Shown piece after piece: positions 1,030 through 20,067 of a stretch of DNA of 20,067 bases. Source of the stretch: a virus; the IMG/VR virus record IMGVR_UViG_3300042351_000004, positions 1 to 20,067 of that record; one strand, given 5' to 3'. Under the pieces are notes generated by a model. The model was given only the letters and a program-made list of their open reading frames with translations. It had not been told where the DNA came from and did no database searches. The position numbers and the translations under genes are program-made. Positions within the stretch are counted from its first letter, which is position 1. Every line of letters begins with the position of its first letter.

Positions 1030-1560
1030 ATGATTCACACACACACAATGTCTCAAACAAAGCAAATGAAAGAGGATATGTTTATTGGTGCTTCCACTAA
1101 TTTTACATCTGTCGCTTCTTATGTTGAACATGTTAGTTTAACAAGTATGGCAAATGACAGTACTAGTTTATTTATTCCCTCAGGTCCATATACACATGTA
1201 AGAATACATCCTCTTTTAGCAGTATATGGATCTGGTAGTGGCATACGTGTAACAGGTTGGTCTAAGCTGAGTGGTACAAATACTTACTACCCAACACTGT
1301 TGTTTGCAGGTGCAATTGCAGGAGTTCAGGCTACTTCTATGATAACAAACAACACTGTTAACCTTAAGGGTGTACATGGTATCACAGTAACAGCGGGTTT
1401 TGGTGCAAATACACTGATTAATAACTCTGCTAACTTATCAGTAGCATCAATAGTTGTTCCATCATTTGGATCTTCTTTTTTAGAAGTAGATTTTTTAGTA
1501 TCAACTACTGGTGTTGCAAATAATTGCAATATTCTTTATAGTTATTGTTCTATTGGTTGA
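1030..1560 (+). CDS. Unrecognised protein between portal and scaffold; candidate head decoration protein
   Basis: This is a 176-residue protein that I do not recognise. It is rich in Ser, Thr, Val, Asn and Gly with alternating hydrophobic residues (for example residues 109-160), has few charged residues after residue 16, and shows no signal peptide or long membrane segment. That pattern suggests a small beta-sandwich structural protein. It lies between portal and scaffold, a place where T7 has no gene, so a capsid decoration or head-fibre role is a reasonable guess from context only. The start is uncertain. ATGs at 1030, 1048, 1066 and 1078 are all in frame. None has a good ribosome site at ideal spacing; the AGAGG at 1071-1075 is only two bases from the 1078 ATG. 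The conserved-looking part begins at MFIGASTNF (1078). Confidence 0.6.
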   Translation: MIHTHTMSQTKQMKEDMFIGASTNFTSVASYVEHVSLTSMANDSTSLFIPSGPYTHVRIHPLLAVYGSGSGIRVTGWSKLSGTNTYYPTLLFAGAIAGVQATSMITNNTVNLKGVHGITVTAGFGANTLINNSANLSVASIVVPSFGSSFLEVDFLVSTTGVANNCNILYSYCSIG

Positions 1561-7722: not shown

Positions 7723-8199
7723 ATGAATAAAACTGATTATACAAGACAAGTATTAAATAGACTTTCTTTAGAGACTAAGACTATTAAAAACTTTACGTCA
7801 GCTGGTAATGTTCCTACTTGGCTTGCAGAAGGAGAGCTAGCTACTAATATAGTTGATAAAAAATTATGGGTTGGAAATACATTAAACACTCCCGTATTAT
7901 TAATTAATGCATCAACAACACCAACAGCCCAAGGTCTTAATACAGAGATACAATTTAATGATGGTGGTCTTGTTGGAGCGCATGCTGGTTTAACATACAA
8001 TAAAACAACCAGTACACTAACAGTTACTAACATAACAGCATTAACAAACATTACTGGAAACGCTGGTACAGCTACTCAATTATCAAGTTCAAGAACAATT
8101 GCTCTTGATGGTGAAGCATCTGGCAGTACTAGTTTCAATGGTGCAAGTAATGTAACAATAACAACAACAATACCACTTCTAGATGGTGGAAACTACTAA
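7723..8199 (+). CDS. Short tail fibre-like protein
   Basis: This 158-residue protein opens a run of fibre-type genes. Residues 25-60 (NFTSAGNVPTWLAEGELATNIVDKKLWVGN) are a small N-terminal module also seen at the start of the next two proteins, likely the part that docks to the tail. Then comes EIQFNDGGLVGAHAGLTYNKTTSTLTV, a common strand-rich fibre motif that recurs in the 602-residue fibre as QVQFNSSGTFAADAGLVYS. The Thr/Asn-rich remainder ends in PLLDGGNY, similar to the end of the following fibre (STIDGGTYT). It carries no receptor-binding domain that I recognise, so it may be an adaptor or a truncated fibre. An AAGG lies 11 bases before the ATG, and the next gene starts 9 bases after the stop. 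Confidence 0.75.
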   Translation: MNKTDYTRQVLNRLSLETKTIKNFTSAGNVPTWLAEGELATNIVDKKLWVGNTLNTPVLLINASTTPTAQGLNTEIQFNDGGLVGAHAGLTYNKTTSTLTVTNITALTNITGNAGTATQLSSSRTIALDGEASGSTSFNGASNVTITTTIPLLDGGNY

Positions 8200-8208
8200 A
8201 GGAAAATT

Positions 8209-10794
8209 ATGGCAAATACAATTAGAATTAGAAGAAGTACAGGATCCACTGCCCCAGGAACGCTTACTAATGCTGAATTAGCGTTTACCGAAACAACCAA
8301 GATACTGTATATTGGTACTGGTATTTCGTCGGGAGTAACTGCAGCACAAATCCATGCAATAGGTGGAATTGGTGCTTTTGTTTCTCTTGGAAGTGATGCA
8401 CAAACTATTGCAGGTGTTAAGACATTCTCTGGTGCTATTGCATTGGGAACCCCAGGATCTGGAACTCTTAGTAACTGTACTGGTCTTTCATTAACAACAG
8501 GTGTATCTGGTATTCTTCCTGTTGCTAATGGTGGTACTGGTTCATCTAGTGGCATTAGTTTAACAACTGGTGTCAGTGGTATTCTTCCTATTGCTAATGG
8601 TGGTACTGGTTCAGCAAGTGGTGTAGATTTATCTAACGCAACTGTTTTCAGTATACTTCCACAATCAAAAGGTGGTACTGGTTTTAGTACGTTTGCTGGT
8701 GCAGGACTTGCTACCACAGCAAGTCCAACTTTTACTGGAACGTTAAATTGCGCAGCACTTACGTCTTCTGGTAATATTATTGTTGGTGGTACTCTTACTT
8801 TATCGGGTCCTCCAACTACTGATCTACACGCAGCTACTAAAGCTTATGTAGACGCTACGGCGCAAGGAATAGATGTAAGAGCTTCTTGCCGAGTTGCATC
8901 TACTACAAACATTGTATTGGCTACAGGAGGAACACAAACTGTAGACGGAGTAGTAACTGTTGCTGGAAATAGAGTATTAGTAAAAGACCAAACTGCATCC
9001 GCAGAGAATGGTATATATGTAGTTGCTGCTGGAGCATGGACTAGAGCTACAGATGCTGATAGTTCTGTAGAAGTTACTGCAGGTATGTTTACATTTGTTA
9101 CTGAAGGTACTGCGAATGCTGACACTGGGTGGGTATTAACTACTAATGACGTTATTACTCTAGGGACAACTGGTTTAGCTTTTTCACAGTTCTCTGGAGC
9201 TGGTGCAGTTGTTGCAGGTAACGGTTTAACTAAAACAGGAAATACTTTAGATGTTGGTACAGTTAGTTCTGATCGCATTGTTGTAAATGCAGATAATATA
9301 GATCTTGGACAACCTACAATCACCAATGGCACTGGTACCGCTGGTATTAGCTTTATTCAAGCACAAACCGTTGATAGTTATGGAAGAACTACTAGCAAGA
9401 CAACAGCTGACGTTAGAGCTGCCACAACTTCAGTGACAGGAATAACTTCACTGACGGACTCAACTAGCTCTACCTCCACAACCACAGCAGCTACTCCGAA
9501 TTCTGTTAAGTCCGCATATGACATAGGAGCTGCAGCACTGCCTAAGGCAGGCGGTACTATGACTGGTAAAGTTACAACGGGAGCAGGTGGTGCATCTTAT
9601 GCAAGTTTGTTGTTGGGAGTATCTGCTGCTGATCCATCACCTCTAACTTCTGGTGACTTGTGGAATAACACAGGTTCAATTAAATTCTATAATGGCTCTG
9701 CTACTAAGACTGTAGCTTTCTTAGATTCTACTAGTACAGGTACTTGGAATGGAGCTGTTATTGCTGGACAATATGGTGGCACAGGTATTGCAAATACAGG
9801 TAAAACAATAACTCTTGGTGGTAATTTAATTACATTAGGATCATTTGTTACTACTGTTACCGTATCTGGTACTACAACTGTTACGCTACCCCTGACAGGT
9901 ACTTTAGTAACGCTAGATGGTGCTGAAACACTCACCCAAAAAACTCTTACTACACCAAAAATAGCACAGATTAATGATACAAATGGTCTTGCTGTCTTGA
10001 AAACTGCTGCTATTGCTTCTGCGGTAAATCAAGTTACCATTACAAACAATATAACAGCACAAGCTCCTCACGTTTCTGCAACGGGAACTGATACAAACAT
10101 CAGTTTGCATCTTGCTCCAAAAGGAACAGGAAAATATGTTGTTGTTGAAAACGGCGCAGACGGAACAAAACAAATTGCTATTGGAGTAGCAGGAGCAACC
10201 ACAGCAACGACAACATATTTTAATGCAGCACAGACTGTTGATAGAACTATTACTCTGCCAGATGCAACAGATACTCTTGTGGGTAAAGCAACTACTGATA
10301 CCTTAACCAATAAATCAATTGCTGCTAATACTTCTGGAAATACTATTACTGGTTTAACTAATACTAATTTATCAGGTACTGCTGGTATTACTAATGCAAA
10401 CTTAGCAAACAGTTCAGTTACTATTGGTAGCACAGCAGTGTCTCTTGGTGCAACTGTTTCTACTTTTGCAGGTTTAACATCAGTAACTTCTACTGGCTTT
10501 ACTGGTGCTTTAACAGGTAACGCATCCACTGCTACAACCTTAGCAACTACTAGAGGAATTTATGGTAATAACTTTAATGGTTCTGCAAACCTTACTCAAG
10601 TAATTGCAGGAACTTATGGTGGTACTGGTGTTAATAACGGTGCCAATACTATTACTGTTGCAGGTAACGTATCACACGCTGGTTCCGCATTTACGCAAAC
10701 ATTCACAGCAACAGCTAATACAAGTGTTACACTACCAACTTCTGGTACTTTATTAAGTGACGGAAGTACTATTGATGGCGGCACTTATACTTGA
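8209..10794 (+). CDS. Large repeat-rich tail fibre protein
   Basis: This 861-residue fibre is very rich in Thr, Gly, Ala, Ser and Val. It starts with a docking-type module, MANTIRIRRSTGSTAPGTLT. It then has tandem GGTG repeats (two 23-residue units at residues 95-140 plus a diverged third). The block AATKAYVD at residues 208-215, followed by NRVLVKDQTASAENGIYVV around residues 252-272 and AWTRATDAD, is a well-known fibre domain of many phages. Two 55-residue modules starting VIAGQYGGTG and VIAGTYGGTG occupy residues 517-571 and 798-852. Between them lies a LTQKTLTTPKI-type segment. It most likely forms a long trimeric shaft for host contact. A good ribosome site, AAAGGAAAAT, precedes the ATG. 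No peptidase or lyase domain is recognisable. Confidence 0.85.
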   Translation: MANTIRIRRSTGSTAPGTLTNAELAFTETTKILYIGTGISSGVTAAQIHAIGGIGAFVSLGSDAQTIAGVKTFSGAIALGTPGSGTLSNCTGLSLTTGVSGILPVANGGTGSSSGISLTTGVSGILPIANGGTGSASGVDLSNATVFSILPQSKGGTGFSTFAGAGLATTASPTFTGTLNCAALTSSGNIIVGGTLTLSGPPTTDLHAATKAYVDATAQGIDVRASCRVASTTNIVLATGGTQTVDGVVTVAGNRVLVKDQTASAENGIYVVAAGAWTRATDADSSVEVTAGMFTFVTEGTANADTGWVLTTNDVITLGTTGLAFSQFSGAGAVVAGNGLTKTGNTLDVGTVSSDRIVVNADNIDLGQPTITNGTGTAGISFIQAQTVDSYGRTTSKTTADVRAATTSVTGITSLTDSTSSTSTTTAATPNSVKSAYDIGAAALPKAGGTMTGKVTTGAGGASYASLLLGVSAADPSPLTSGDLWNNTGSIKFYNGSATKTVAFLDSTSTGTWNGAVIAGQYGGTGIANTGKTITLGGNLITLGSFVTTVTVSGTTTVTLPLTGTLVTLDGAETLTQKTLTTPKIAQINDTNGLAVLKTAAIASAVNQVTITNNITAQAPHVSATGTDTNISLHLAPKGTGKYVVVENGADGTKQIAIGVAGATTATTTYFNAAQTVDRTITLPDATDTLVGKATTDTLTNKSIAANTSGNTITGLTNTNLSGTAGITNANLANSSVTIGSTAVSLGATVSTFAGLTSVTSTGFTGALTGNASTATTLATTRGIYGNNFNGSANLTQVIAGTYGGTGVNNGANTITVAGNVSHAGSAFTQTFTATANTSVTLPTSGTLLSDGSTIDGGTYT
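8491..8628 (+). repeat. Tandem 69-bp repeat, two copies, in the large fibre gene
   Basis: Two adjacent in-frame 69-bp units (8491-8559 and 8560-8628) encode 23 residues each, beginning LTTGVSGILP and containing ANGGTGS. They differ at a few codons only. A third, diverged unit follows with SILPQSKGGTG. Such units are typical fibre shaft repeats and can change number by recombination. Confidence 0.9.
9757..9921 (+). repeat. Dispersed 165-bp fibre module, copy 1 (copy 2 at 10600-10764)
   Basis: This segment and 10600-10764 encode 55-residue modules of exactly equal length. Both start VIAG-YGGTG, have TIT-GGN or TIT-AGN in the middle, and end in TLP-TGTL or TLP-SGTL followed by DG. They are diverged in DNA sequence, so the duplication is old, or the modules are independent members of a common fibre domain family. 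Confidence 0.8.
10600..10764 (+). repeat. Dispersed 165-bp fibre module, copy 2
   Basis: This is the second copy of the 55-residue module described at 9757-9921. It ends only ten codons before the stop of the fibre gene, so the C-terminus of the protein is formed by this shaft-type module and not by an evident receptor-binding tip. Confidence 0.8.
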
Positions 10795-10812: not shown

Positions 10813-12621
10813 ATGGCTAATACAATACAACACAAAAGAAGTTCAACAGCAACTACAATTCCCACATCTGGTCAATTATTAGCAGGAGAACTTGCTGTTA
10901 ATACAGCCGATGGAAAATTGTTTCTTAAAAAAGACAATAACTCAATTGTACAAATTGGAACTGTTGCGTCAGGTTCATCGGGTCAAGTGCAGTTTAACAG
11001 TAGTGGAACTTTTGCTGCTGATGCTGGATTAGTATACAGCAATGGCACTGCAGGATATGAAGAATTACAGGTTGGCAGTGGAGCAACAAGATTCCTAACA
11101 ATACTCGGTAGAGTTGCAACAGGAGGCGCAGGATCTGCAATACAACCAAATAATGCGCTAGACATTGAATCGGTAGGCGGTAGTGAAATTACAATCGGGG
11201 ATGCATCTGGCACTTATGACGGGACAAAAATTGTCGTTGGTTCAACAGACATTTCGTTGAGTGCATCAACAATCCACATTGATGGAGTAATTACAGGCTC
11301 AAACACAACCGCATCGACATCATCAGCGACAGGTGCGCTGATCGTTTCAGGTGGTGTTGGCGTTGCGAAGGATTCACACATCAACAGTCAACGCATCGGC
11401 GTTGGGCTTTTGCAGAACACCACAAACTTAGCAGTCGGTGCAAATACTCTTGCTGCAACAATCACAGGCGGCATAAACAACACGGCGATTGGATCGGGAT
11501 GCGGTAGCGGCATCACGAGTGGCAGCCAAAATACTTTTCTCGGCTATGCGGTCGGAACGCTTGTGACAACAGGTGCGGGAAATTGCTCAATCGGATACGC
11601 ATCTCTGAATCAAAATATTGGTGGAAATTACAACACAGCGATGGGCTATGGTGCTCTGCAAAACACGACCGCAAGCAACAATACGGCAGTCGGTATTGCA
11701 GCACTTCAGAACATTACGACAGGTGCGCTTAATACTGCAGTCGGTCGTGAAGCGGGATGTTTTCAAGCGGACGGTACGACCGCACTAACAACCGCAAACA
11801 ACTCGGTCTATCTCGGTCGTGACACACGGGGAACGCAAAGCGATTCTAACTCTGTTGTCATTGGATATCAAGCCATTGGTCTCGGCGCAAACACGACGGT
11901 GCTTGGAAATTCATCCACGACCGCTGCAACTGTCTACGGAGTACTGACCCCTAGTAAGGGGCTACTTGCACCAGCAGGAACAACTGCGATTGCTCCCATT
12001 AAGTTACAAAGCGGAACAAATCTGACAACACCAACTTCAGGCGTAGTTGAGTTTGACGGAAAGGCTATGTACGGTACTGTTGCAAGCGGTCGAGGTTTAA
12101 TACCAACCGAACAATTTTCAATTATCACAACAACTAAAAGCTTAACTAGTTCTACTGCTGCTCAAAATATTTTTGATACACCAGAAGATACAATTACACT
12201 TGCTCTTGACACGGCGTATTCCTTTGAGGGCTTTTTCAGTATTGTGAGTGGGACGACCAGCCACACAACAGCCATTACGTTGGTGGATGCTACGGCTGGA
12301 TCAGAAAATATAAGTTGGCGTTGGATGGCTATGGGGCATAGTTCAGCTGCTGGAACTGTTATTAGAACGCAAGACACCGTTGTTTTTACTACTAATGGTG
12401 GAGTAATCACTGCATCCTCAACTAGTGCGCTTACAACAATATGGTGTCGAGGAGTTGTAATTGTTACATCTGCGGGTGCAACACCAATAGCAAGAAATAT
12501 TGTTCCAAAAATAACTTTTTCTGCTGCCCCTACTAATACAAATCAAGTCGCTGTAGGTTCGTTTATTCGGTTTGTTCCTCTTGGTTCAAACTTAGTAAAA
12601 AGCGTAGGACCTTGGTCTTAA
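10813..12621 (+). CDS. Tail fibre protein with YadA-like head repeats
   Basis: This 602-residue protein starts with MANTIQHKRSS and GQLLAGELAVNTADGKLFL, a docking-type module related to that of the preceding fibre. The strand motif QVQFNSSGTF follows. Residues 222-316 hold repeats of about 15-25 residues with the core NTA(I/M/V)G plus a GY-ALQN spacer, like the stalk-head repeats of YadA-type trimeric adhesins, which form left-handed beta-rolls. The C-terminal part, from about residue 434, looks like a globular beta-sandwich (FSIITTTKSL, SFEGFFSIVSG, FIRFVPLGSN) and probably forms the receptor-binding tip. A ribosome site CGGAGA lies 8 bases before the ATG. The DNA from about 11100 to 11950 is clearly richer in G+C than its surroundings (see findings), which suggests that the head-repeat part was acquired separately. 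Confidence 0.85.
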   Translation: MANTIQHKRSSTATTIPTSGQLLAGELAVNTADGKLFLKKDNNSIVQIGTVASGSSGQVQFNSSGTFAADAGLVYSNGTAGYEELQVGSGATRFLTILGRVATGGAGSAIQPNNALDIESVGGSEITIGDASGTYDGTKIVVGSTDISLSASTIHIDGVITGSNTTASTSSATGALIVSGGVGVAKDSHINSQRIGVGLLQNTTNLAVGANTLAATITGGINNTAIGSGCGSGITSGSQNTFLGYAVGTLVTTGAGNCSIGYASLNQNIGGNYNTAMGYGALQNTTASNNTAVGIAALQNITTGALNTAVGREAGCFQADGTTALTTANNSVYLGRDTRGTQSDSNSVVIGYQAIGLGANTTVLGNSSTTAATVYGVLTPSKGLLAPAGTTAIAPIKLQSGTNLTTPTSGVVEFDGKAMYGTVASGRGLIPTEQFSIITTTKSLTSSTAAQNIFDTPEDTITLALDTAYSFEGFFSIVSGTTSHTTAITLVDATAGSENISWRWMAMGHSSAAGTVIRTQDTVVFTTNGGVITASSTSALTTIWCRGVVIVTSAGATPIARNIVPKITFSAAPTNTNQVAVGSFIRFVPLGSNLVKSVGPWS

Positions 12622-12654
12622 TTTAACATAAACTAACAAAAGAAATAAAAAAAT

Positions 12655-12939
12655 ATGACCGTTGATCCAAGTATTGCCATTGTCATTGATTCAACTCTAC
12701 GATCTCCTGAACAGATTGCACAGGACATCAAAGCATCTTATGACTCAGTCAATCTCATCAATCAGATTGTTGCTGATGATCAACACAGCGACGAGGTACA
12801 CAATACCGTAATACGAAACGTGATCCACCTTCGTTCTTGTTTCACACTAGAGCACATCATAGAAAACGCAACGACCGAAGACAAGATCGCATTTGCAGAT
12901 GCTGCGACACTTGGTGATACTTTTTTAATTAACAACTAA
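12655..12939 (+). CDS. Small protein of unknown function between fibre genes
   Basis: This 94-residue acidic protein has no recognised domain. It begins MTVDPSIAIVIDST and looks largely helical (SPEQIAQDIKASYDSVNLIN, then TVIRNVIHLRSCF), with no signal peptide or membrane segment. Size, charge and position between two fibre genes would suit a fibre chaperone or a small baseplate-like subunit, but nothing in the sequence proves that. The upstream AAAGAAA is a poor ribosome site. Its middle part uses more G+C-rich codons than the flanking spacers, similar to the GC-rich patch in the fibre before it, so it may have travelled with that segment. Confidence 0.6.
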   Translation: MTVDPSIAIVIDSTLRSPEQIAQDIKASYDSVNLINQIVADDQHSDEVHNTVIRNVIHLRSCFTLEHIIENATTEDKIAFADAATLGDTFLINN

Positions 12940-12953
12940 CACAAGAAAATAAA

Positions 12954-14366
12954 ATGACATATACAAACACACCTATAGTAGTCAGTCAACAAACCACTGG
13001 TTATACTTCTGGAAACATTCCATACTCCAGTATTGTTTTAATTCCAAGTATTCCACACGCAGCTCAACTAGAGGTTGAAAGAATTTTTACACAAGATAGA
13101 GATGGAAGTACAGCAACTCTATTGGCTTTCTTAGCAGACCCAGCTGTTACTACTGCTCAAAAGAAAGCTGTGTTTCTTATCCCCATCAGTCGTTGTACCT
13201 TGGATTCTATTACAAGTAACATCACAGCAATCGACTTACCTGCTTCAGGAGCTACTATTTATAATTATGTAGTAATAACCCCAACCCCTACTACTTATAC
13301 TATAAAGGTACCAGCTTTAAGCAGCTCTACAGTTACAGTACGTCGTAAAACCGTATCAAATGAACCATTTGTAAACTGGCAAGCAGGAAGTCGTCTTACC
13401 AGTAAACAGTTAAACTTAGCAACAACTCAATCGTTATATCTTATACAAGAAGCTTTAGAAAAGATTGGTACATCTGTAACAATTGAAACAACACAGATTA
13501 CAGCTGCCAGTCTATCAGATAATTCTGTAACCAATTCTGCTATTGCAAGCAATGCTGTGACAACTGCTAAGATTGCAGACAATGCTGTTACTACAGCTAA
13601 GATTGCAGACAATGCTATTACAACAGCTAAAATTATTGATGTAAATGTTACGACAGCTAAGCTTGCAGATAATTCTGTAACCTCAGCAAAGATTGCCGAT
13701 GCTAATGTTACAACTGCTAAGATTGCCGATGCTAATGTTACAACTGTTAAGATTGCAGATAGTAGTGTTACAACTGCTAAGATTGCCGACAGTGCTGTTA
13801 CATCTGCTAAAATTTTAGATGGTACTATTGTAAATGCAGCTATAAGTGCAACTGCTGGCATTGTTGATACAAAGCTATCTACTATTTCTACTGCTGGTAA
13901 AGTAGCTAATAGTGCAACTACAGCTGTGACTGCAGCTACTGCTGATACTATTGTGTTGCGAGGAACTAGTGGAGCTGTTACAACAGGTCTTTTAACCGCA
14001 TCATCAATTTCAACTTCAGGAAATCTTTTATTTAACAGTGGGTTTGGGTCTGCTGCGGTTGGTTATGGATGTCGTGCGTGGGTAAATTTTAATGGTACAG
14101 GAACGATTGCTATAAAAGCAAGTGGTAATGTAAGTTCAATTGGTGATAATGGTGCGGGTGATTACACAGTAAATTTTACCACATCTATGTCCGATGCTAA
14201 TTATTGTATAGCAACTTCTGGTGCTCGCACTGCTGCCGAAATTCAAGTAATTGGTGTTGATTACACAAACTCTACAAAAACGGCATCGGCTGTTCGGCTA
14301 GGCGCAAAGTTAATAGGACTTGCTAGATCAGATTCTGCCGAATGTAATGTAGCTATCTTCCGTTAA
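12954..14366 (+). CDS. Tail fibre with T7 gp17-like N-terminus
   Basis: This 470-residue fibre has three parts. Residues 1-170 resemble the tail-attachment domain of T7 gp17: a strand-rich start, VTVRRKTVSNEPFVNW, then GSRLTSKQLNLATTQSLYLI and QEAL, comparable to the LRRVTS...FTDGSILRAYDLN...HVAEEA region of T7. Residues 190-289 are ten 10-residue repeats of the pattern (N/S/A)xVTTAKIAD, a typical shaft. The C-terminal 100 residues begin with AWVNFNGTGTIAIKASGNVS and contain DYTVNFTTSMSDANY, a domain common at the ends of phage fibres. It is probably the fibre that binds tail tubular A/B directly, with the other fibres attached to it or beside it. The start has only a weak AAGAAAA ribosome site, 15 bases after the preceding stop. 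Confidence 0.88.
   Translation: MTYTNTPIVVSQQTTGYTSGNIPYSSIVLIPSIPHAAQLEVERIFTQDRDGSTATLLAFLADPAVTTAQKKAVFLIPISRCTLDSITSNITAIDLPASGATIYNYVVITPTPTTYTIKVPALSSSTVTVRRKTVSNEPFVNWQAGSRLTSKQLNLATTQSLYLIQEALEKIGTSVTIETTQITAASLSDNSVTNSAIASNAVTTAKIADNAVTTAKIADNAITTAKIIDVNVTTAKLADNSVTSAKIADANVTTAKIADANVTTVKIADSSVTTAKIADSAVTSAKILDGTIVNAAISATAGIVDTKLSTISTAGKVANSATTAVTAATADTIVLRGTSGAVTTGLLTASSISTSGNLLFNSGFGSAAVGYGCRAWVNFNGTGTIAIKASGNVSSIGDNGAGDYTVNFTTSMSDANYCIATSGARTAAEIQVIGVDYTNSTKTASAVRLGAKLIGLARSDSAECNVAIFR
13521..13820 (+). repeat. Ten 30-bp tandem repeats in the gp17-like fibre gene
   Basis: Ten consecutive 30-bp units stay in frame and encode 10-residue units such as NAVTTAKIAD. The units differ by point changes; units 2 and 3 (13551-13610) are nearly identical, as are units 7 and 8 (13701-13760). 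An eleventh degenerate unit (GTIVNAAISA) follows. The array is a coding minisatellite that forms a fibre shaft. Confidence 0.95.
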
Positions 14367-14383
14367 TTTAAAAGGAACAAACA

Positions 14384-14584
14384 ATGAACAAACGAATTAT
14401 ATATCCAACAGACGAAGGAACAGTATCTATTATTATTCCGTCACCAGAGTGGTTGCAAACTCACACAATTGAAGAACTTGCAGCAAAAGATGTTCCTGCT
14501 GGCAAGCCGTATAAAATTGTAGATGTATCTGAAATTCCAACAGATCGCACATTTAGAAACGCATGGGAGTACACAGCATTATGA
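14384..14584 (+). CDS. Small conserved phage protein after the fibre genes
   Basis: This 66-residue protein has the pattern MNKRIIYPTDEGTVSIIIPS, an EELAAKDVPAGKPYKIVD core and DRTFRNAWEY at the end. I recognise this pattern from small proteins encoded next to tail fibre genes in various phages, whose function is not known to me. The core KDVPAGxPYxIVD and the closing RTFRNAWE are the family-like parts. AAAGGA lies 8 bases before the ATG. The stop overlaps the next start (ATGA at 14581-14584), so both are translated together, as expected for a pair of fibre accessory proteins. Confidence 0.7.
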   Translation: MNKRIIYPTDEGTVSIIIPSPEWLQTHTIEELAAKDVPAGKPYKIVDVSEIPTDRTFRNAWEYTAL

Positions 14585-14808
14585 GTATTATTATAAACTT
14601 TGAAAAAGCACAAGAAATTACAAAAATAAGATTAAGAACTGAACGAACACCTTTGTTAATAGAGCAAGATATTTTATTTCAACGTGCATTAGAAACAGGA
14701 GCAAGCACAATAGATATTATAGCAGAAAAACAGCGATTAAGAAACATAACAAATTTAGTAAATGAAGCCACAACTTTAAATCAACTTAAAACACTAACAA
14801 GCTACTAG
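14581..14808 (+). CDS. Small protein, possibly a tail fibre assembly chaperone
   Basis: This protein has 75 residues when started at the ATG at 14581, which overlaps the preceding stop as ATGA; the in-frame ATG at 14563 would add six residues overlapping the upstream gene and has no better ribosome site. The protein is helical and charged: FEKAQEITKIRLRTERTPLL, then EQDILFQRALETG, EKQRLRNI and TTLNQLKTL. The order (Arg-rich helix, Leu/Asp turn, KQRLRNIT, short terminal helix) resembles the C-terminal domain of tail fibre assembly proteins, which typically carry a LRD or LRN motif. This is an inference from pattern and place only. Confidence 0.55.
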   Translation: MSIIINFEKAQEITKIRLRTERTPLLIEQDILFQRALETGASTIDIIAEKQRLRNITNLVNEATTLNQLKTLTSY

Positions 14809-14830
14809 ATAATAAACCTTAATTATAACT

Positions 14831-15112
14831 ATGACAAACAATAACACTAATAAACCCTTCTCTCCATCTATAGCTTTGCAGTGGTTACAACTAATTGTAT
14901 TAACAATAGGAGTAGCTGGTTTTTTTACTGTGTTAGGCGGTAAAAATGAAACAATAAATAGAACAACATCAGACCTCAGTGAACTAAAAAACATTGTGCA
15001 AGATCTTGTAAAAAGTCAAATTACATTTGCTGTGAATGATGGAAGACATCAAGAAATGTTAGATGATCTTCGTATAAGAGTGTTTGATTTAGAGAAAAGG
15101 AGTATTCGATAA
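14831..15112 (+). CDS. Membrane-anchored coiled-coil protein (holin or inner-membrane spanin candidate)
   Basis: This 93-residue protein has one membrane segment (about residues 17-37, LQWLQLIVLTIGVAGFFTVL) after a short polar N-terminus, followed by a charged helical region (residues 43-93) with heptad-like spacing of Leu, Ile and Val. The topology is that of an inner-membrane spanin subunit (N-in, coiled coil in the periplasm) or a small single-span holin. T7 gp18.5 spanin is longer (143 residues). No ribosome site is visible before the ATG; the 22-base gap is AT-rich. The stop overlaps the next ATG (TAATG), starting a chain of coupled genes that runs to TerS. Confidence 0.6.
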   Translation: MTNNNTNKPFSPSIALQWLQLIVLTIGVAGFFTVLGGKNETINRTTSDLSELKNIVQDLVKSQITFAVNDGRHQEMLDDLRIRVFDLEKRSIR

Positions 15113-15546
15113 TGCCATTAGAGTTAATCAGTTTGTTAGGTGGTGGTTTAGCTGGGTTTGTCTTTCGATACCTTGCTCAACGAGCATCAGATCAAAAGGA
15201 AATGTTTGTTCAACTACTTGCAGTCAATAAACAAACAACCGAGAACCAAGACAAGGCAGCCCTCAGGGTTCCATTAGATGTTGGTAAGGTTGTCCGTCAG
15301 ACCATTGTGTTGGTTGTGTTGTTTGGAACCATTGTGGCTCCATTTGTATTGCCTTTCTTTGGGGTCCCTACCTTTGTAGAAGTCGATACAGTTAACCCAG
15401 AAGGTTTGTTTGGTATCATTCCCCAATACAGCCGTAAGGTTTTTGTTGAGGTGAATGGGTTTCTTTACACGTCTGAGAATCGTCAAATCTTGGTATCCCT
15501 AGTGGGCTTTTACTTTGGAACCGCAGCAGCAGGAAATAAATCATGA
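15112..15546 (+). CDS. Membrane protein, candidate holin
   Basis: This is a 144-residue membrane protein. Residues 5-21 (Gly-rich SLLGGGLAGFVFRYLAQ) form a short hydrophobic or amphipathic helix, a polar stretch follows, residues 62-84 are a strong membrane segment (RQTIVLVVLFGTIVAPFVL), and residues 126-141 (ILVSLVGFYFGTAAAG) form a third. The short Gly-rich N-terminal segment followed by charged Arg/Gln/Lys, and a terminal FYFG segment, recall small membrane proteins in lysis regions of other phages that are often annotated as holins. No enzymatic motif is present. It overlaps both neighbours by 1-4 bases. Holin is the best guess; a head-associated membrane factor cannot be excluded. Confidence 0.55.
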   Translation: MPLELISLLGGGLAGFVFRYLAQRASDQKEMFVQLLAVNKQTTENQDKAALRVPLDVGKVVRQTIVLVVLFGTIVAPFVLPFFGVPTFVEVDTVNPEGLFGIIPQYSRKVFVEVNGFLYTSENRQILVSLVGFYFGTAAAGNKS

Positions 15547-15755
15547 AATATATTCTATCTTTAATGTGTTTAGTTGGCTGTTCCACAGTCCCTATTCTTG
15601 TCCCTGATGCATCTCGACCATCGGTCATGGAAACCGTTATTACCCATGGGATTGATAAGCCTAGTTACTACTGGGTGTTGTGGTATGTACCTGTATTAGT
15701 TGTTGTATTGGGTTGGTCCTATGTCACCTTCATTAAGAAAGGCACTAAAGAATGA
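15543..15755 (+). CDS. Tiny lipoprotein-like membrane protein, spanin or holin candidate
   Basis: This protein has 70 residues. The N-terminus MKYILSLMCLVGCS is a lipoprotein signal with lipobox LVGC, predicting acylation at Cys13. A second hydrophobic segment, about residues 43-65 (YWVLWYVPVLVVVLGWSYV), ends in the basic KKGTKE. A lipoprotein with a C-terminal membrane segment is the layout of the one-piece spanins (T1 gp11 type), but here only about 30 residues lie between the anchors. If the lipobox is not processed, it would be a two-span class II holin-like protein, similar in size to T7 gp17.5 (67 residues). It overlaps its neighbours by ATGA at both ends. Confidence 0.6.
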   Translation: MKYILSLMCLVGCSTVPILVPDASRPSVMETVITHGIDKPSYYWVLWYVPVLVVVLGWSYVTFIKKGTKE

Positions 15756-15991
15756 GTCGTAAACAAACAGTTAATAGGATTTATGATAAGCTGCTGAACG
15801 CATTACTGGAAGATCTATCTGACAGCTCTAAGTGTGGTCCTGGATTATATCAAGTAATCCGTGGAGTCATGCAGGACAATAGAGAGTTATTGGACAGTAT
15901 TCCAAGTGATTCAATGGAAGCGGTTGAGCGGAAGATGGCTGCTTCTGTTCCCTTTAAGTTTGCCTCTACAAACCCAGCACCCCTTCAGTAA
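15752..15991 (+). CDS. terS: Terminase small subunit
   Basis: This 79-residue protein directly precedes TerL, and the T7 small terminase gp18 (89 residues) has the same build. LLEDLSDSSKCGPGLYQVIRG aligns by eye with ADLSDHERRSPQLYNAINK of T7, followed by a charged helix and a short tail. The small subunit recognises the concatemer and stimulates the packaging ATPase. The start overlaps the upstream stop (ATGA). The stop falls in CCC CTT CAG TAA. In the +1 frame the reading continues as FSKAEVTYDAFVPAGATDA to 16043, which looks like a natural acidic C-terminus, so the gene may be frameshifted or may use a CCC-C slip (see findings). The 97-base gap to TerL is otherwise non-coding. Confidence 0.78.
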   Translation: MSRKQTVNRIYDKLLNALLEDLSDSSKCGPGLYQVIRGVMQDNRELLDSIPSDSMEAVERKMAASVPFKFASTNPAPLQ

Positions 15992-16065
15992 GGCTGAGGT
16001 GACCTATGATGCGTTTGTTCCTGCAGGGGCTACAGATGCCTAGGGTAACATAAGAAACGCAACAC

Positions 16066-16084
16066 AGGAGATCCTAGAAAGGAT
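16066..16084 (+). promoter_or_regulatory. Double ribosome site with small hairpin before terL
   Basis: AGGAG (16066-16070) and AAAGG (16078-16082) lie 18 and 6 bases before the TerL ATG. The second is partly held in a 5-bp inverted repeat, ATCCT (16071-16075) and AGGAT (16080-16084), with a 4-base AGAA loop. The hairpin could limit TerL translation. The string ACACAGGAGAT here also occurs before the tail tubular A start (4049-4059). Confidence 0.4.
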
Positions 16085-16088
16085 ACTA

Positions 16089-17777
16089 ATGAATGTACCT
16101 CAAGAGGTGTTAGATGACTTTAGAAATCATCTATATTTTTGTTTCAAGTATTTAGGTCTTGGGTTACCTACCCCAAAGCAGTATGCTATGGCAGAGGTTC
16201 TTCAGAACGGCAGTAATGACTTTTTAATGCAAGCTGGTCGTGGGGATGGTAAGTCTGTTATCAATGCTTGCTTTGTGTCTTGGAAGATTCTTAAAGATAT
16301 TAACAGAACTCAACTTGTTCTTTCAGCTGCTGGGGATAAGGCTATTAAGTTTGTATCTCAGGTTCGTCAGACCCTAGCTTTAGTTCCGTATATGCAACAT
16401 TTGATTCCTCAGGAGTTTGAGAAGGATTCGGCATTCGGGTTTAATGTACATGGTCGTACTAGAATCAGCCAAGATCTTTCGGTATCCGCAAAAGGTATCA
16501 CCAGTCAGATCACAGGATCCCATGCAGATGATATCTTGTGTGATGATATAGAAGTACCTGAGAACTCCGATAGCCCTGCATCCCGTGAAAAGTTATGGGA
16601 TAGGTGTATGGAGTTAGAGAATGTAAGAAACAAAATAGATGATGCAACTATCAGATTCCTAGGGACACCTCAAACAAAAGACTCTATATACAATAAACTT
16701 GCAAGTCTATATACAGTTGTTAAGTTTCCTGCTGTTATGCCTGATATAACATCTCCTCAGGATTGTGAGAATGTTCATAAGTATATCCTTGGTTTAGAAT
16801 TAGAAGCGGGTCAATCAACTCAAGTAGAAAGATTCTCTGATGAAAGACTGTTGGAGATTGAAGCAAAGATTGGTCCCAGCTTATTTGCATTGCACTATAA
16901 GCTTGATACAAGTTCATCCGACAGTAAACGATATCCACTTCATCTTGCAGACTTGTTAGTATTAGATGTTGATGTTGATATCTTTCCTACTAAAGTAACT
17001 TGGTCAAACTCAACACAGAATAAAAGAGTTGCATCCTTTGGTATGCGTGGTGATATCTGTTATGAACCCATGTGGGTATCTTCGGATCATACTGATTATA
17101 TGGAAACAGTATTGTTTATTGATCCATCAGGTCGAGGAGAAGATGAGACAGCTTTATGTGTGGCATCCTTTGTCAATGGTTACATTGTGGTACATGAGTT
17201 GTTTGGTCTTCAAGGAGGATATGATAATATTACTTTACAAAAGATATGTAAGTTAGTTATCCAATACAAGATAAAGAAGATCAGTTATGAATCAAACTAT
17301 GGTGATGGTATGTTTGGTCAGATACTGAAACCAGTCGTTGCATCTTCTTGTGGGCAAGTTGCCATCAAGGAATACAAAGTAACTGGGAATAAGGAGAGTC
17401 GTATCTTGCGGACACTGGAGCCTGTGTTTGCTCAGCATCGTTTAGTGTTTGATACGAAAGCAATTCAAGACAAAGAAAATCAAATACAAATAACGAGAAT
17501 AACAGAAAGACGGGGGTCATTAAAACATGACGATAGAATTGACGTATTATCTGCTGCTGTGTCTTATTGGGCTGATGCCATTGCAATTGATCCTGATACC
17601 GCTATTAAAAAGAATCAATCTGATGAACAAAAAAAGATCACTAAAGACTGGATGTCCAATAAAAGATCATTAGGTTTACTTGGAGAGCGCATCAGTGGAG
17701 CTGTGTTATTGAATGGTCAAGAAGTTGGAAAGAAAAAATCTAAGTTTGGTACTTCAATACTAAAGAGGAGACAATGA
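16089..17777 (+). CDS. terL: Terminase large subunit
   Basis: This 562-residue protein is the packaging motor: an N-terminal ATPase that pumps DNA through the portal and a C-terminal RNase H-like nuclease that cuts the concatemer. The Walker A-type loop GRGDGKS is at residues 50-56, equivalent to FRGVGKS in T7 gp19. ITSQITGSHADDILCDDIEV (residues 137-156) holds the Walker B acidic pair and matches T7 [26 protein letters not shown] at residues 191-196 is the coupling motif. The nuclease motifs are IDPSGRGEDET (D345), YESNYGDGMFG (E401) and HDDRID (D481, D482, D485), almost identical to T7. The length is close to T7 gp19 (586). The stop is overlapped by the next gene (ATGA). All expected catalytic residues are present. 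Confidence 0.97.
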   Translation: MNVPQEVLDDFRNHLYFCFKYLGLGLPTPKQYAMAEVLQNGSNDFLMQAGRGDGKSVINACFVSWKILKDINRTQLVLSAAGDKAIKFVSQVRQTLALVPYMQHLIPQEFEKDSAFGFNVHGRTRISQDLSVSAKGITSQITGSHADDILCDDIEVPENSDSPASREKLWDRCMELENVRNKIDDATIRFLGTPQTKDSIYNKLASLYTVVKFPAVMPDITSPQDCENVHKYILGLELEAGQSTQVERFSDERLLEIEAKIGPSLFALHYKLDTSSSDSKRYPLHLADLLVLDVDVDIFPTKVTWSNSTQNKRVASFGMRGDICYEPMWVSSDHTDYMETVLFIDPSGRGEDETALCVASFVNGYIVVHELFGLQGGYDNITLQKICKLVIQYKIKKISYESNYGDGMFGQILKPVVASSCGQVAIKEYKVTGNKESRILRTLEPVFAQHRLVFDTKAIQDKENQIQITRITERRGSLKHDDRIDVLSAAVSYWADAIAIDPDTAIKKNQSDEQKKITKDWMSNKRSLGLLGERISGAVLLNGQEVGKKKSKFGTSILKRRQ

Positions 17778-18253
17778 ATGCAGTCACAGGCATCGGTCCC
17801 CGCACAGGGACATCGTGGGTCATGGGCAAACTGCAAGAAGCAGGGCTTAAGGTCAATGGTCATAAATTCCTACCTGACCTATTAGTGCCCAAACATAACC
17901 CACAAGGTTACTGGGAGTTAGACCCTGATGAACCAATGCCAACCACAGGCATCAGTAAGTTATGGGGTATCTGGCATAACACAAATGTCAATAAGGTTGT
18001 GGTGTTAGAACGAGCTGATACCAAAGCACAACTAAAGTCAATGGATAAAGTTTTAAAAGATGAGTTACTGCTGCCGAAATGTGCATCACTGTGGAAACCT
18101 GAATGGACATCTAAAGCAGTCTTATCAATGTACATTACAGCAATGAATGAATGGCTAACAACAAGAGACTTAGAAAAGACTATGATAGTTTATACTGAGA
18201 ATCTAAATAACGAAATAGACAATATAATTAAATTCTTACAGGAGGATAACTAA
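17774..18253 (+). CDS. Small sulfotransferase-like P-loop protein
   Basis: This 159-residue protein has the layout of a PAPS-dependent sulfotransferase, which moves a sulfuryl group from PAPS to an acceptor. VTGIGPRTGTSWV (residues 4-16) matches the 5'-phosphosulfate loop (G-PRSGTS/TW type). GYWELDP (residues 45-51) is like the GYWE segment after that loop. VVVLERADTKAQLKSM (residues 75-90), with R80 and S89, fits the strand and helix that bind the 3'-phosphate. MIVYTENLNNEIDNIIKFL (residues 137-155) fits the usual YEDL...L..FL end. It is much shorter than typical enzymes (about 250-350 residues), so substrate-binding parts are reduced. It overlaps TerL by ATGA and the next gene by TAATG, so it is co-translated with virion genes. 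Acceptor and activity are unknown. Confidence 0.7.
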   Translation: MNAVTGIGPRTGTSWVMGKLQEAGLKVNGHKFLPDLLVPKHNPQGYWELDPDEPMPTTGISKLWGIWHNTNVNKVVVLERADTKAQLKSMDKVLKDELLLPKCASLWKPEWTSKAVLSMYITAMNEWLTTRDLEKTMIVYTENLNNEIDNIIKFLQEDN

Positions 18254-18948
18254 TGGGAGTAGCAGCAGGAGTAATGGGTGGGCTTGCTTTAGCGCAAGGA
18301 GTAATGGGTGCTTTTTCAGCAAGCTCAGCAGCATCAGCGCAAGCACAAGCACAAAAACTACAACAACAACAAGCTAATTTTAAGAATGAATGGGCACATG
18401 CAGCTGAGCAACGAAATCAGATGCGTCAGTTCCAAGCAAACCTAGAAAGAAATGCACTGATTGAACGTGGTGCTAATACAGATCGAGCACTAGCTGAATT
18501 GTATTTAGATAAGAACTTTCAGAATGCAAAGGGAACCTTATCAAAGCAAACTGCAGCAACCAATGCTCAGTTTCTTGGAACAATGCAAGCACGTGGTATG
18601 GGGTCAACCTCAGGTACAGCAAGAGCATTGTTACGACAAAACATGTCAGCAGTCAGTGCAAACATGATTGCACTTAAGACAAACTATAGGCAATCCTATA
18701 AGGATATTGAAAATCAACAAAGCCAAAAGCTGGGGCAAAGACAATTTTCTTTTCAAGAACAATCAGTCTTTCTACCAGTTACTGGGGGTATTGCAGATTC
18801 ATCATCAAGTGCATTAACCACAGGTCTTATTAGTGCGGGCATCCAAGGTGTTGCTGCTGGTTACTCAGCAAACCTACAGTATGGTGGTGGTGGTGGTGGT
18901 GGTGGTGATTATACAGCGTCTCCATATTTTGTTGGACCACGACAATAA
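18253..18948 (+). CDS. Internal virion protein, gp14-type
   Basis: This 231-residue protein resembles T7 gp14 (196 residues), a core protein ejected into the cell envelope at infection. It starts with an Ala/Gly-rich hydrophobic stretch (residues 1-30), then has a long Gln/Ala-rich helix (about residues 28-75, with repeated AQAQAQ and LQQQQ). RGMGSTSGTARALLRQN and NIENQQS-like Gln-rich helices follow. The C-terminal part holds eight consecutive glycines (residues 211-218) before a short tail. The strong ribosome site AGGAGG (18240-18245) is 7 bases before the ATG, inside the preceding gene, indicating high expression. The Ala/Gln-rich helix and the pairing with the next gene support the call. 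Confidence 0.82.
   Translation: MGVAAGVMGGLALAQGVMGAFSASSAASAQAQAQKLQQQQANFKNEWAHAAEQRNQMRQFQANLERNALIERGANTDRALAELYLDKNFQNAKGTLSKQTAATNAQFLGTMQARGMGSTSGTARALLRQNMSAVSANMIALKTNYRQSYKDIENQQSQKLGQRQFSFQEQSVFLPVTGGIADSSSSALTTGLISAGIQGVAAGYSANLQYGGGGGGGGDYTASPYFVGPRQ
18883..18906 (+). repeat. (GGT)8 microsatellite coding for eight glycines
   Basis: Eight perfect GGT codons encode Gly211-218 of the gp14-type internal protein. Such pure trinucleotide runs are prone to slippage but keep the frame. The run probably makes a flexible linker near the C-terminus. Confidence 0.97.
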
Positions 18949-18957
18949 GGATAAAAT

Positions 18958-20019
18958 ATGTCACAACTAAACAATAACTTTTACAATGAACTGCAGAATA
19001 TTGCTTCTGCATCTATGCCAGTTACAACTACAAACACAAACCCAACAAACATTGAAGAAGGTTTATCAAAACAAGCTACAGCTAGACTAAAAGAATCAAC
19101 TGATCTTGCAATGCAAATGTATCCATCAGAAGCAGGAGAAAGATTTGATTTCTGGAAGAAACAAAACAACCCAGAAAGTATGGATACAGATACAAAGAAT
19201 GTTTATTGGAAGACATATGAACAGATGCATCCTGAAGGTATTGTTGGGGCTAAAAGAGATTTCGTAGATGTTACTAAGAGAGAGTTAGATGTTATTGGTA
19301 GTAATGTTGGTAAGGAGTATTTCCTAAGGGATAGGTTGGTGAATACACCAGCATGGGCACGTAAAGAATTAGATCCTATTTTAGGTGAACTTAGTGCAAA
19401 CGTTGCTAACTCAAACTACTCTAAATCACAACAAGTCTATATGAAAGATTTAGATCTCAGGGCTTCTCACTTTGCTGCTAAGGCTCAGTTAGATCCTGAT
19501 GTGTCTATAGATACCCATACAGAAGATGCTGTTAAATTGGAACAACTAAATCTTTTAGAATTGGGTACAGTTGTTCAAGGTCGTATAGGTGTTTATAATG
19601 AAGATGGTCAATTCTACCCAGCCTTTGGTATTAAAGATAGAACTGAGATTTTTAAAAAAGATATTGACGCATCTCCTTCTTTGGAAGAACAAAGTGTTGT
19701 TCGTGGTATTGCTCCTAACATTATCCGAAGAGCTGTTGAAGGAAATCTTGCGTTAAACCGAAACAAGATTCAAGCACAAGAACGCACAGGAGAAGCAGTC
19801 GCTACTGAGTATTTAACAACTGGTGCTTTTGGTATTGATAAATGGAATACAGCCTTTGCTATGTTACCTAACGTTACTAATTATGATAAACTAAAACAAG
19901 GTATTCAAGGAGAGATTTCTTCTGGCAGAATAACCTCTGAAAAAGATTTAATAAGAACAATCTATCAATCTATGGTCACTTATGGTCATCTATTTGAAAA
20001 AAATAAGGAACAGAAATAA
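18958..20019 (+). CDS. Putative internal virion protein (gp15-type position)
   Basis: This 353-residue hydrophilic, mostly helical protein is rich in Glu, Lys, Gln and Asn and has no signal or membrane segment. It follows the gp14-type gene after 9 bases, the place of the gp15-type core protein in T7. The N-terminus is Asn/Thr-rich (NNNFYNELQNIASASM, then TTTNTNPTN), followed by charged helices such as RDFVDVTKRELDVIGSNVG and DRLVNTPAWARKELDPI. T7 gp15 has 747 residues, so this protein would be less than half that length. Either the family member is short here or its function is split with the next gene, which starts at the overlapping TAATG. I recognise no motif that proves the family. AAGGAT lies 7 bases before the ATG. 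Confidence 0.65.
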   Translation: MSQLNNNFYNELQNIASASMPVTTTNTNPTNIEEGLSKQATARLKESTDLAMQMYPSEAGERFDFWKKQNNPESMDTDTKNVYWKTYEQMHPEGIVGAKRDFVDVTKRELDVIGSNVGKEYFLRDRLVNTPAWARKELDPILGELSANVANSNYSKSQQVYMKDLDLRASHFAAKAQLDPDVSIDTHTEDAVKLEQLNLLELGTVVQGRIGVYNEDGQFYPAFGIKDRTEIFKKDIDASPSLEEQSVVRGIAPNIIRRAVEGNLALNRNKIQAQERTGEAVATEYLTTGAFGIDKWNTAFAMLPNVTNYDKLKQGIQGEISSGRITSEKDLIRTIYQSMVTYGHLFEKNKEQK

Positions 20020-20067
20020 TGCCTCCACTTCAGCCTCTTCAACAAACAATCTTTGAACAAGGTCCAC
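20019..20067 (+). CDS. Start of a further gene, cut by window edge
   Basis: An ATG overlaps the previous stop by one base (TAATG) and opens MPPLQPLQQTIFEQGP up to the window end. With only 16 residues nothing can be assigned. From position it is likely the next internal virion protein (gp15/gp16-type). Confidence 0.6.
   Translation, partial: MPPLQPLQQTIFEQGP

Follow-up and report, generated by a model that had tools for sequence, protein, structure and literature searches.

The phage described here carries a compact sulfotransferase-like (ST) gene at its TerL-gp14 junction. Its protein belongs to a separate compact clade with computed homology to sulfotransferases, and the gene behaves as facultative cargo at that site: it passes down mainly with the phage and has frequently been lost. 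With a probability of about 0.7, we read it as encoding a small soluble PAPS-dependent sulfotransferase, carried as facultative late-operon cargo before the gp14-position gene; the protein is likely to be catalytic. The features are given in Table 1, where the window is the whole stretch of DNA analysed (20,067 nucleotides).

Table 1. Features of the window around the ST gene.
Feature	Position	Strand	Basis
Compact sulfotransferase-like gene, 159 aa	17774..18253	+	ORF, family, structure model
Proposed 5'-phosphosulfate-binding loop, G8-PRTGTS-14	17795..17815	+	Alignment
Family signature KHNPxGYW[E/D], residues 40-48	17891..17917	+	Alignment
Proposed 3'-phosphate site, Arg80...Ser89	18011..18040	+	Alignment and profile comparison
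TerL (T7 gp19 type), upstream neighbour, ATGA overlap	16089..17777	+	
gp14-position gene (internal virion/ejection type), downstream neighbour	18253..18948	+	Position and family conservation
gp15-position gene	18958..20019	+	Position alone, without Pfam match
TerS/gp18-like DNA packaging protein	15752..15991	+	Sub-threshold Pfam DNA_Packaging_2, E 0.016

The ST gene is a real open reading frame running from ATG to TAA. It is coupled to both neighbours as the first-pass annotation had described: the TerL stop codon (TGA, 17775-17777) overlaps its ATG as ATGA, and the last base of its own TAA (18251-18253) is the first base of the next gene's ATG, giving TAATG. By eye, purine-rich stretches resembling ribosome sites (AGAGGAG and AGGAGG) precede the ST gene and the next gene. 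The motifs and length claimed from the sequence were all recovered in the 159-residue protein, namely G8-P-R10-T-G12-T-S14-W, G45-Y-W-E48, R80, S89, Y140-TENL and F154-L155. Because TerL is kept upstream, dN/dS is low and the PAPS-site residues are invariant (see below), the ORF is more than a chance reading frame. The gp14 identity of the downstream gene rests mainly on position: its product matched named gp14-position proteins weakly (0.0053 to HTVC025P, in a set of 13 sequences) and the T7_gp14 model gave 9.5 on the copy in contig L010. The L010 counterpart of the gp15-position gene had a weak match to a PHROG 'portal' (0.001). Within 12600-20067, sigma-70-like matches (21 versus 21.5; T7-type promoters lay outside the scan) and terminator-like matches (5 versus 4.3) stood at the shuffled level, and the window held no Rfam match and no tRNA gene.

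Searched alone, the window's ST protein (P0001) matched no Pfam family at E<=10, including PF00685, PF13469 and PF03567, the sulfotransferase families in which the first-pass annotation had proposed to look for it. Nor did it match a PHROG or NCBIfam model or any of 50,697 named phages, and against PDB sequences it gave nothing of use. PF13469 matched one of 24 clade members, at 0.13; the clade does not reach the gathering cut-off and is not filed under any of these three families. Relatives of the gene were found on 60 IMG/VR contigs, all of one clade. A first scan of the genome collection, with a six-member phage alignment as query, yielded 27 stretches that fit its patterns and confirmed no relative, and the family was therefore bridged through L113/L114. 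An L051-based scan returned no contigs beyond those from earlier scans.

A cellular (bacterial and archaeal) Sulfotransfer_3-type family, GLPRSGTSMMM...NPxGYxE (alignment A6; A7 omits one of its 30 rows, L134), showed full-length profile homology to the ST protein. The 24 phage and 30 cellular members aligned over 158 columns (hhalign, probability 98.5, E 3.2e-15) with a score of 96.8, whereas 20 column-shuffled controls reached no more than 18.6 and the reversed control 13.1. Residues 51-159 alone kept the same register (score 28.5, E 5e-4, probability 30.6). At E<=0.1, every one of the 30 cellular members hits Pfam Sulfotransfer_3, with a best E of 8.5e-14, and the viral bridge P0003 lies just over that model's cut-off (27.3 versus 27 bits). 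Against solved structures, the joint phage and cellular profile found sulfotransferases (best E 2.3e-7), with named sulfotransferases in all of the best 22 matches and no kinase name among the 60 matches listed. The cellular rows alone found them at 4e-5, and the phage profile alone reached SULT1B1 at 0.08 (A2), beneath two ubiquitin ligases (0.014-0.021), or at 0.22 (A3). The original description of the gene as sulfotransferase-like is thus upheld by controlled profile-profile homology and the joint-profile search, together with the PAPS-site conservation and Foldseek matches described below.

We take P-[RK]-x-G-T-[ST] to be the 5'-phosphosulfate-binding loop of sulfotransferases, and the R10-S14 segment fits it. 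An arginine and a serine presumably bind the 3'-phosphate in PAPS-dependent sulfotransferases, roles that we assign to R80 and S89; in a SULT1A chain, the R...S segment aligns with that of the cellular profile. R10, G12, S14, R80 and S89 are invariant in 59/59 aligned rows, which bears out the Arg80/Ser89 pair claimed at the putative 3'-phosphate site. Position 13 is T in 57 rows and T or S in all 59. Phage and cellular rows alike also keep K62 and the N, G and Y of NxxGY without exception, so that the cellular family and the phage clade have the loop core, NxxGY, Lys62 and Arg80/Ser89 in common. E/D48 (E in 49 rows, D in 10) is a candidate catalytic base, an assignment that is unsure because H41 is replaced by K in 2/27 phage rows and residue 48 is D in 9/27. 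The phage clade differs from the cellular family by one additional residue in each PAPS loop: G8 is present in 27/27 phage rows and a gap in the other 32/32, and the Arg80...Ser89 spacing is longer by one. It also lacks the C-terminal tail of the cellular proteins, estimated by eye at about 20 residues, and has residues of its own in W64, Q86, E97, T141 and L144 (27/27 each). With the PAPS loops lengthened and the tail missing, the pocket may therefore be altered.

TerL lies directly upstream of the ST gene in 59/60 family contigs, many of which are near-copies, and a window-type gp14 gene comes next in 57 of the 58 clade contigs with downstream sequence. The TerL-sulfotransferase-gp14 order, proposed at the outset for checking in neighbouring genomes, is thus kept. 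Among 80 related gp14 loci, 45 carry the ST gene, 32 have an empty junction and 3 (L282, L291 and L292) hold a Bbp23-like gene, leaving the ST gene absent from 35/80. Presence and absence on the TerL tree require 12 changes, 9 of them forced by starred branches, and ST distances are correlated with TerL distances (r 0.83). The median dN/dS of the ST gene is 0.206 (69 pairs); in the 37 pairs common to three genes, the values are 0.147 for ST, 0.075 for TerL and 0.273 for gp14. Although purifying selection acts on the gene, it is facultative and therefore not a core virion gene of this phage group. Its assignment to the late structural operon of a T7-like phage accordingly holds for position and not for core virion status. 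ST-carrying T7-like phages are known from environmental DNA.

A first structure model from six sequences was poor (pLDDT 70, residues 30-70 below 50) and was replaced by one built on 59 rows (pLDDT 93.6), in which the predicted fold is of P-loop type. Foldseek matched this model to six PDB chains at E<=0.001, all heparan sulfate 3-O-sulfotransferases (3-OSTs; best 1.8e-4), with TM-scores of 0.51-0.54 by query length. The viral structure library gave no match at E<=0.001, and its weak matches included named sulfotransferases, kinases and others. Membership of another P-loop family had been named as what would overturn the sulfotransferase reading, and here the methods differ: profiles find sulfotransferases and Foldseek ranks 3-OSTs first, whereas VIA-align places nucleotide kinases (Z 10.5 to hCINAP, 10.4 to NRK1) slightly above Stf0 (9.3) and 3-OST-1 (8.9). 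Fap7, which is adenylate-kinase-like, also appears at Foldseek rank 9. However, the Walker A motif of P-loop nucleotide kinases is GxxxxGK[ST], and the ST loop reads GxGPRTGTS, without the Walker-A lysine. As the sequence profiles also find sulfotransferases and not kinases, a nucleotide or nucleoside kinase is extremely improbable. We consider it unlikely, too, that the protein is a non-enzymatic PAP/PAPS binder descended from a sulfotransferase. Its short length, lost tail, lengthened loops and uncertain base would fit such a protein, but invariant PAPS-site residues, K62 and N/G/Y of NxxGY, together with purifying selection, argue against it.

As a PAPS-dependent sulfotransferase, the protein would bind host-made PAPS through the P-loop-like 5'-phosphosulfate loop (R10, G12, T13, S14) and hold its 3'-phosphate with R80 and S89, with E/D48 of NxxGYW[E/D] as a possible base. 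Among long contigs, which may be incomplete, an APS kinase gene was found in 0/16 and a PAPS reductase gene in 0/19, so PAPS would have to come from the host; Sulfotransfer_3, a model blind to the ST clade itself, was found in 0/19. With its gene coupled to TerL on one side and to the gp14-position ejection gene on the other, the protein would be made with the late operon. The acceptor may be a virion or ejection component, which we place slightly ahead of a host-surface glycan. By analogy with T7 gp13, the protein might modify or help to assemble gp14-gp16 type proteins, a tentative reading to which we give a little less than an even chance. Gp13 lies directly before the gp14-position gene in T7 and three named relatives, and its profile, which found 3/3 of the named phages it was built from, is silent in 23/23 IMG/VR contigs. 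In BA3, Vibrio phage D478 and the three contigs above, this place is taken by Bbp23-like genes. In L051, a podovirus with a different gene order, the ST gene again lies just before a gp14-position gene, although the product of that gene has no match to the window's. The 32/80 empty slots argue against a necessary virion role, and in the 15 ST-less contigs searched (two Bbp23-like; some perhaps incomplete) both gp13 and ST were absent from other places too, which suggests that the slot need not be filled. The three slot families, moreover, have no detectable homology. It is somewhat unlikely, on the other hand, that the protein acts in the dying cell by sulfating a glycan of the surface or a lipid precursor, which would stop sibling phages or progeny from adsorbing (superinfection exclusion or debris avoidance). 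A facultative gene with repeated changes of state is what host interaction would lead one to expect, the nearest Foldseek folds are carbohydrate sulfotransferases, and a bacterial LPS-modifying sulfotransferase is described in LpsS of S. meliloti (PMC12445080). However, the position is fixed before an ejection-type gene, L051 included, late expression would leave little time for surface remodelling, and no glycan genes were noticed by eye among the ORFs of one long contig.

Viral surveys meet sulfotransferases as unexplained auxiliary genes; here they form a defined clade whose location is constant, with closely related phages that naturally differ in having or lacking the gene and with a compact protein (about 160-175 residues), which makes function testable by comparison. 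An unlikely proposal is that ST is specific to its slot, which in other podoviruses houses a GNAT-like gp13 or Bbp23-like gene, and sulfates the ejection or virion proteins of its own phage; if true, this gene position would be a module for virion-tailoring proteins whose folds are unrelated, and the phage particle would contain sulfated protein. The slot before the ejection-type gene is filled by three families. The view that T7 has no counterpart stands as to homology, the ST protein having no detectable similarity to gp13 (PF11090, hhalign E 0.26), but not as to place, since gene 13 of T7 holds the same position. PF11090 was found in 0/19 long contigs by a search that finds T7. Gp13 (Pfam Phage_T7_Gp13) has 138 residues in T7 and 150-154 in three relatives; simple replacement of gp13 by ST is weakened by the empty junctions. 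T7 gp13 is described as a GNAT (PMC6775973), and its PDB matches were only weak acetyltransferases (E 0.39). The record of Bbp24 annotates it as a GNAT, but it showed no detectable similarity to gp13, and a GNAT-like protein is mentioned for JG068 (PMC3765740). Bbp23-like proteins (BPP-1, BA3, D478) show no detectable similarity to ST (hhalign E 0.085). Elsewhere among viruses, a study of OM43 phages mentions PF13469 in two MVGs, sulfotransferase AMGs are recorded from glacier ice and an estuary, and one account states that sulfotransferase function in phage genomes remains unclear (PMC10580990). Unlike the ST gene, the viral sulfotransferase P0003 is flanked by a T7-type primase/helicase (L054) on one side and by DNA polymerase A (L055) on the other, and that of L114 lies just before a T4-type terminase gene.

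The ST gene of the window starts within the stop of the TerL gene (ATGA overlap) and its own stop overlaps the start of the next gene (TAATG). The first-pass annotation had described the gene with the same coordinates and overlaps, and all of the motifs that it named were found at the residues assigned to them. TerL belongs to the T7 gp19 type (PHROG phrog_38, 5.5e-88; Pfam Terminase-T7_RNaseH-like). Together with further Pfam matches to Head-tail_con, Phage_nozzle and Phage_T7_tail, this identifies the window, a virus record of 20,067 bases, as the late region of a T7-like phage and bears out the proposed late-operon setting. A locus of 99.9% identity to the window over the 7,294 bases compared (L006) is part of a contig of 60,949 bases. 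This contig encodes a T7-type RNA polymerase and, judged by eye, a primase/helicase, a DNA polymerase and what is probably a ribonucleotide reductase. T7-type RNA polymerase was found in 12/19 long contigs. The coordinates of these and other genes are collected in the table.

Locations of the ST gene, of genes found in its place and of other genes observed in the window and related contigs
Feature	Location	Remarks
ST gene	window 17774-18253 (+)	159 residues
Bbp23-like gene in the slot instead of ST	L282:2513-2971; L291:2457-2975; L292	BPP-1, BA3 relatives
P0003 gene	L054:4562-5215; L055:91-744	sulfotransferase-type, in another phage group; 4-base overlap with T7-like primase/helicase gene (L054); DNA polymerase A next (L055)
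Long ORF, L006 contig	L204:9241-19998	at least 3,586 aa, runs off the piece; directly after a 1,733-aa ORF in gp16 position
Second, weaker RNA polymerase match, L066 contig	G018:C1:40516-41667	PF00940, E 6e-33, 687-aa frame; main match E 1.4e-86
Protein between portal and scaffold-type genes	window 1030-1560	176 aa; best PHROG match 0.2
Consecutive proteins with like N-termini	window 8209-10794, 10813-12621 (perhaps 7723-8199)	MANTI..RRS / ..GELA.. type, by eye; possibly fibre or fibre-attachment proteins, ahead of T7-type tail fibre gene

The Pfam profile check suggested by the first-pass annotation gave no model at E<=10 for the ST protein of the window (P0001) alone, and no match was found in PHROG, NCBIfam or named phage records. 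Nor did the related proteins from L010, L113, L114 and L051 match named phages. Iterated IMG/VR scans recovered a clade of 60 contigs, many of them near-copies and 2 truncated where the contig ends; two further carriers (L265 and L266) came from scanning with the gp14 alignment. When 84,980 genomes of bacteria and archaea were scanned for patterns of a six-member phage alignment, no relative was confirmed. The bridge between the phage clade and cellular proteins is viral, consisting of P0003 (217 aa), which scores above the Sulfotransfer_3 cut-off (27.3 bits against 27), and the L113 and L114 proteins, which fall under it (21.9 and 25.3). Scanning genome contigs with the latter two gave at least 566 relatives in at least 590 stretches, of which 80 were kept and 30 aligned; at E<=0.1 all 30 matched Sulfotransfer_3 and 28 Sulfotransfer_1. 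The profile of 24 phage rows matched that of these cellular rows across 158 columns at prob 98.5 and E 3.2e-15, with a score of 96.8; none of 20 column shuffles exceeded 18.6, and the reversed profile reached 13.1. Most of the signal is held by the first 50 residues, which scored 71.6, since residues 51-159 alone gave an in-register but weak alignment with a score of 28.5 (E 5e-4, prob 30.6). The half after the loop (positions 73 onward) is covered by matches of the joint 59-row alignment to solved structures, namely SULT1 (E 2.3e-7) and tyrosylprotein sulfotransferase 2 (2.9e-5); the best SULT match was 4e-5 with the cellular rows alone and 0.22 with the phage rows alone. No kinase was named in the best 60 of 62 structure matches. 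With these controls the original family call proves right in substance, and the profiles indicate that the ST gene is a compact variant of the known sulfotransferase superfamily, with predicted activity.

The predicted structure (model m6262bb9d475f, pLDDT 93.6, pTM 0.89) was compared in two ways. At E<=0.001 Foldseek matched six PDB chains, each of them a heparan sulfate 3-O-sulfotransferase (TM-scores 0.51-0.54 by query length), and the first non-sulfotransferase came at rank 9. Among the same candidates, VIA-align ranked Stf0 (Z 9.3, rank 28) and 3-OST-1 (Z 8.9) below hCINAP (Z 10.5), NRK1 and adenylate kinases. The modelled fold alone does not decide between a sulfotransferase and a kinase; the decision for a sulfotransferase comes from the sequence profiles and from the lack of a Walker-A lysine.

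Thirteen residues are identical in all 59 rows of the joint alignment (V4, G6, R10, G12, S14, M17, G24, N42, G45, Y46, K62, R80 and S89). By analogy with sulfotransferases, the 5'-phosphosulfate loop would correspond to R10-S14 and the 3'-phosphate pair to R80/S89; when the cellular profile was aligned with a SULT1A chain, its R...S coincided with the R...S segment of the SULT. The phage members form one clade (support 100/99), whose loop has one Gly more than that of all 32 other rows. Compared to the cellular rows, they are one residue longer between R and S, lack the C-terminal tail and carry W64, Q86, E97, T141 and L144 (27/27 phage rows; Q86 is also in one bridge protein). Of the 27 phage rows, 18 have E and 9 have D at residue 48, the proposed base; at residue 41, H occurs in 25 of these rows and K in the other 2.

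The TerL-sulfotransferase-gp14 order, which had been put forward for checking in related phages, is kept almost throughout the clade. TerL lies directly upstream in 59/60 clade contigs, where it overlaps ST by either 4 bases or 1, and a gp14 gene of the window type comes next in 57/58 with downstream sequence. It is called gp14 mainly for its position: in a 13-sequence set the gp14-position protein of the window reached only 0.0053 to the HTVC025P protein and no better than 4 to T7 gp14. The exception, L051, lies in a contig that by eye appears to have another gene order; its ST copy is nested inside the clade (97/91) and also precedes a gp14-position gene. The product of the latter bears weak likeness to named gp14-position proteins (0.03-0.9) and no resemblance to that of the window.

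The ST gene is facultative, not core. Among 80 loci kept from 90 in the gp14-alignment scan, the gene directly upstream of gp14 was ST in 45, an abutting TerL in 32 (28 by script, 4 read by hand) and a Bbp23-like gene of 152-172 aa in 3. No ST was found elsewhere in 15 ST-less contigs searched whole, a search that found 8/8 carriers. On a quick TerL tree (85 rows, 63 different) presence changes 12 times, 9 of them forced by starred branches, against a shuffled mean of 25, and close pairs are split (L280 without, L285 with). In two aligned with/without pairs the TerL genes are alike until the last few bases (~15 in L255/L242), where the insert starts; its border on the gp14 side was not resolved by the alignment script. 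ST and TerL distances are correlated (r 0.83, 0/999 permutations as high, 34 chosen carriers of 60), and thus ST appears mostly inherited and often lost, although the TerL tree cannot tell gain from loss. Median dN/dS was 0.206 (range 0.015-0.659; 69 pairs with synonymous differences of 0.05-0.55); on 37 pairs common to three genes it was 0.147 for ST, 0.075 for TerL and 0.273 for gp14.

We propose that the product would be a late, soluble, PAPS-using sulfotransferase. PAPS would be host-supplied, since neither PAPS reductase (0/19) nor APS kinase (0/16) genes were seen in long contigs. The slot before the gp14-position gene speaks in favour of an acceptor that is a virion or ejection component; the frequent absence of ST speaks for a role that is host-directed or conditional. 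Sulfotransferases are listed among viral AMGs in passages of PMC8290583 and PMC12285232, and excerpts of PMC11309003 and PMC13299392 mention one viral sulfotransferase domain and a sulfotransferase in a podovirus, respectively. Exact phrases for a phage-encoded sulfotransferase had no match in the open-access literature, and the two papers that matched sulfotransferase with superinfection exclusion contain the word once each.

Lastly, other phages fill the same slot with different genes, and no homology is detectable among the three slot families (ST, gp13 and Bbp23-like). The gp13 profile was silent in 23/23 IMG/VR contigs searched, with and without ST. Gene 13 of T7, an 'internal virion protein', directly precedes gene 14. 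A gp13 homologue also occupies the slot between tail tubular protein B and the gp14-position gene of a Limnohabitans phage, of Roseobacter phage CRP-403 and of pelagiphage HTVC025P (E 4e-7, 9e-5 and 6e-10 to T7 gp13 in the 13-sequence set); a P-SSP10 stretch did not settle the slot. Bbp23-like matches occur in 42 records, and in the 3 examined for gene order the gene lies just before one annotated 'DNA ejection' (Thalassomonas phage BA3 and Vibrio phage D478) or, in BPP-1, in the order terminase, GNAT (as annotated), Bbp23, Bbp22, portal-type.
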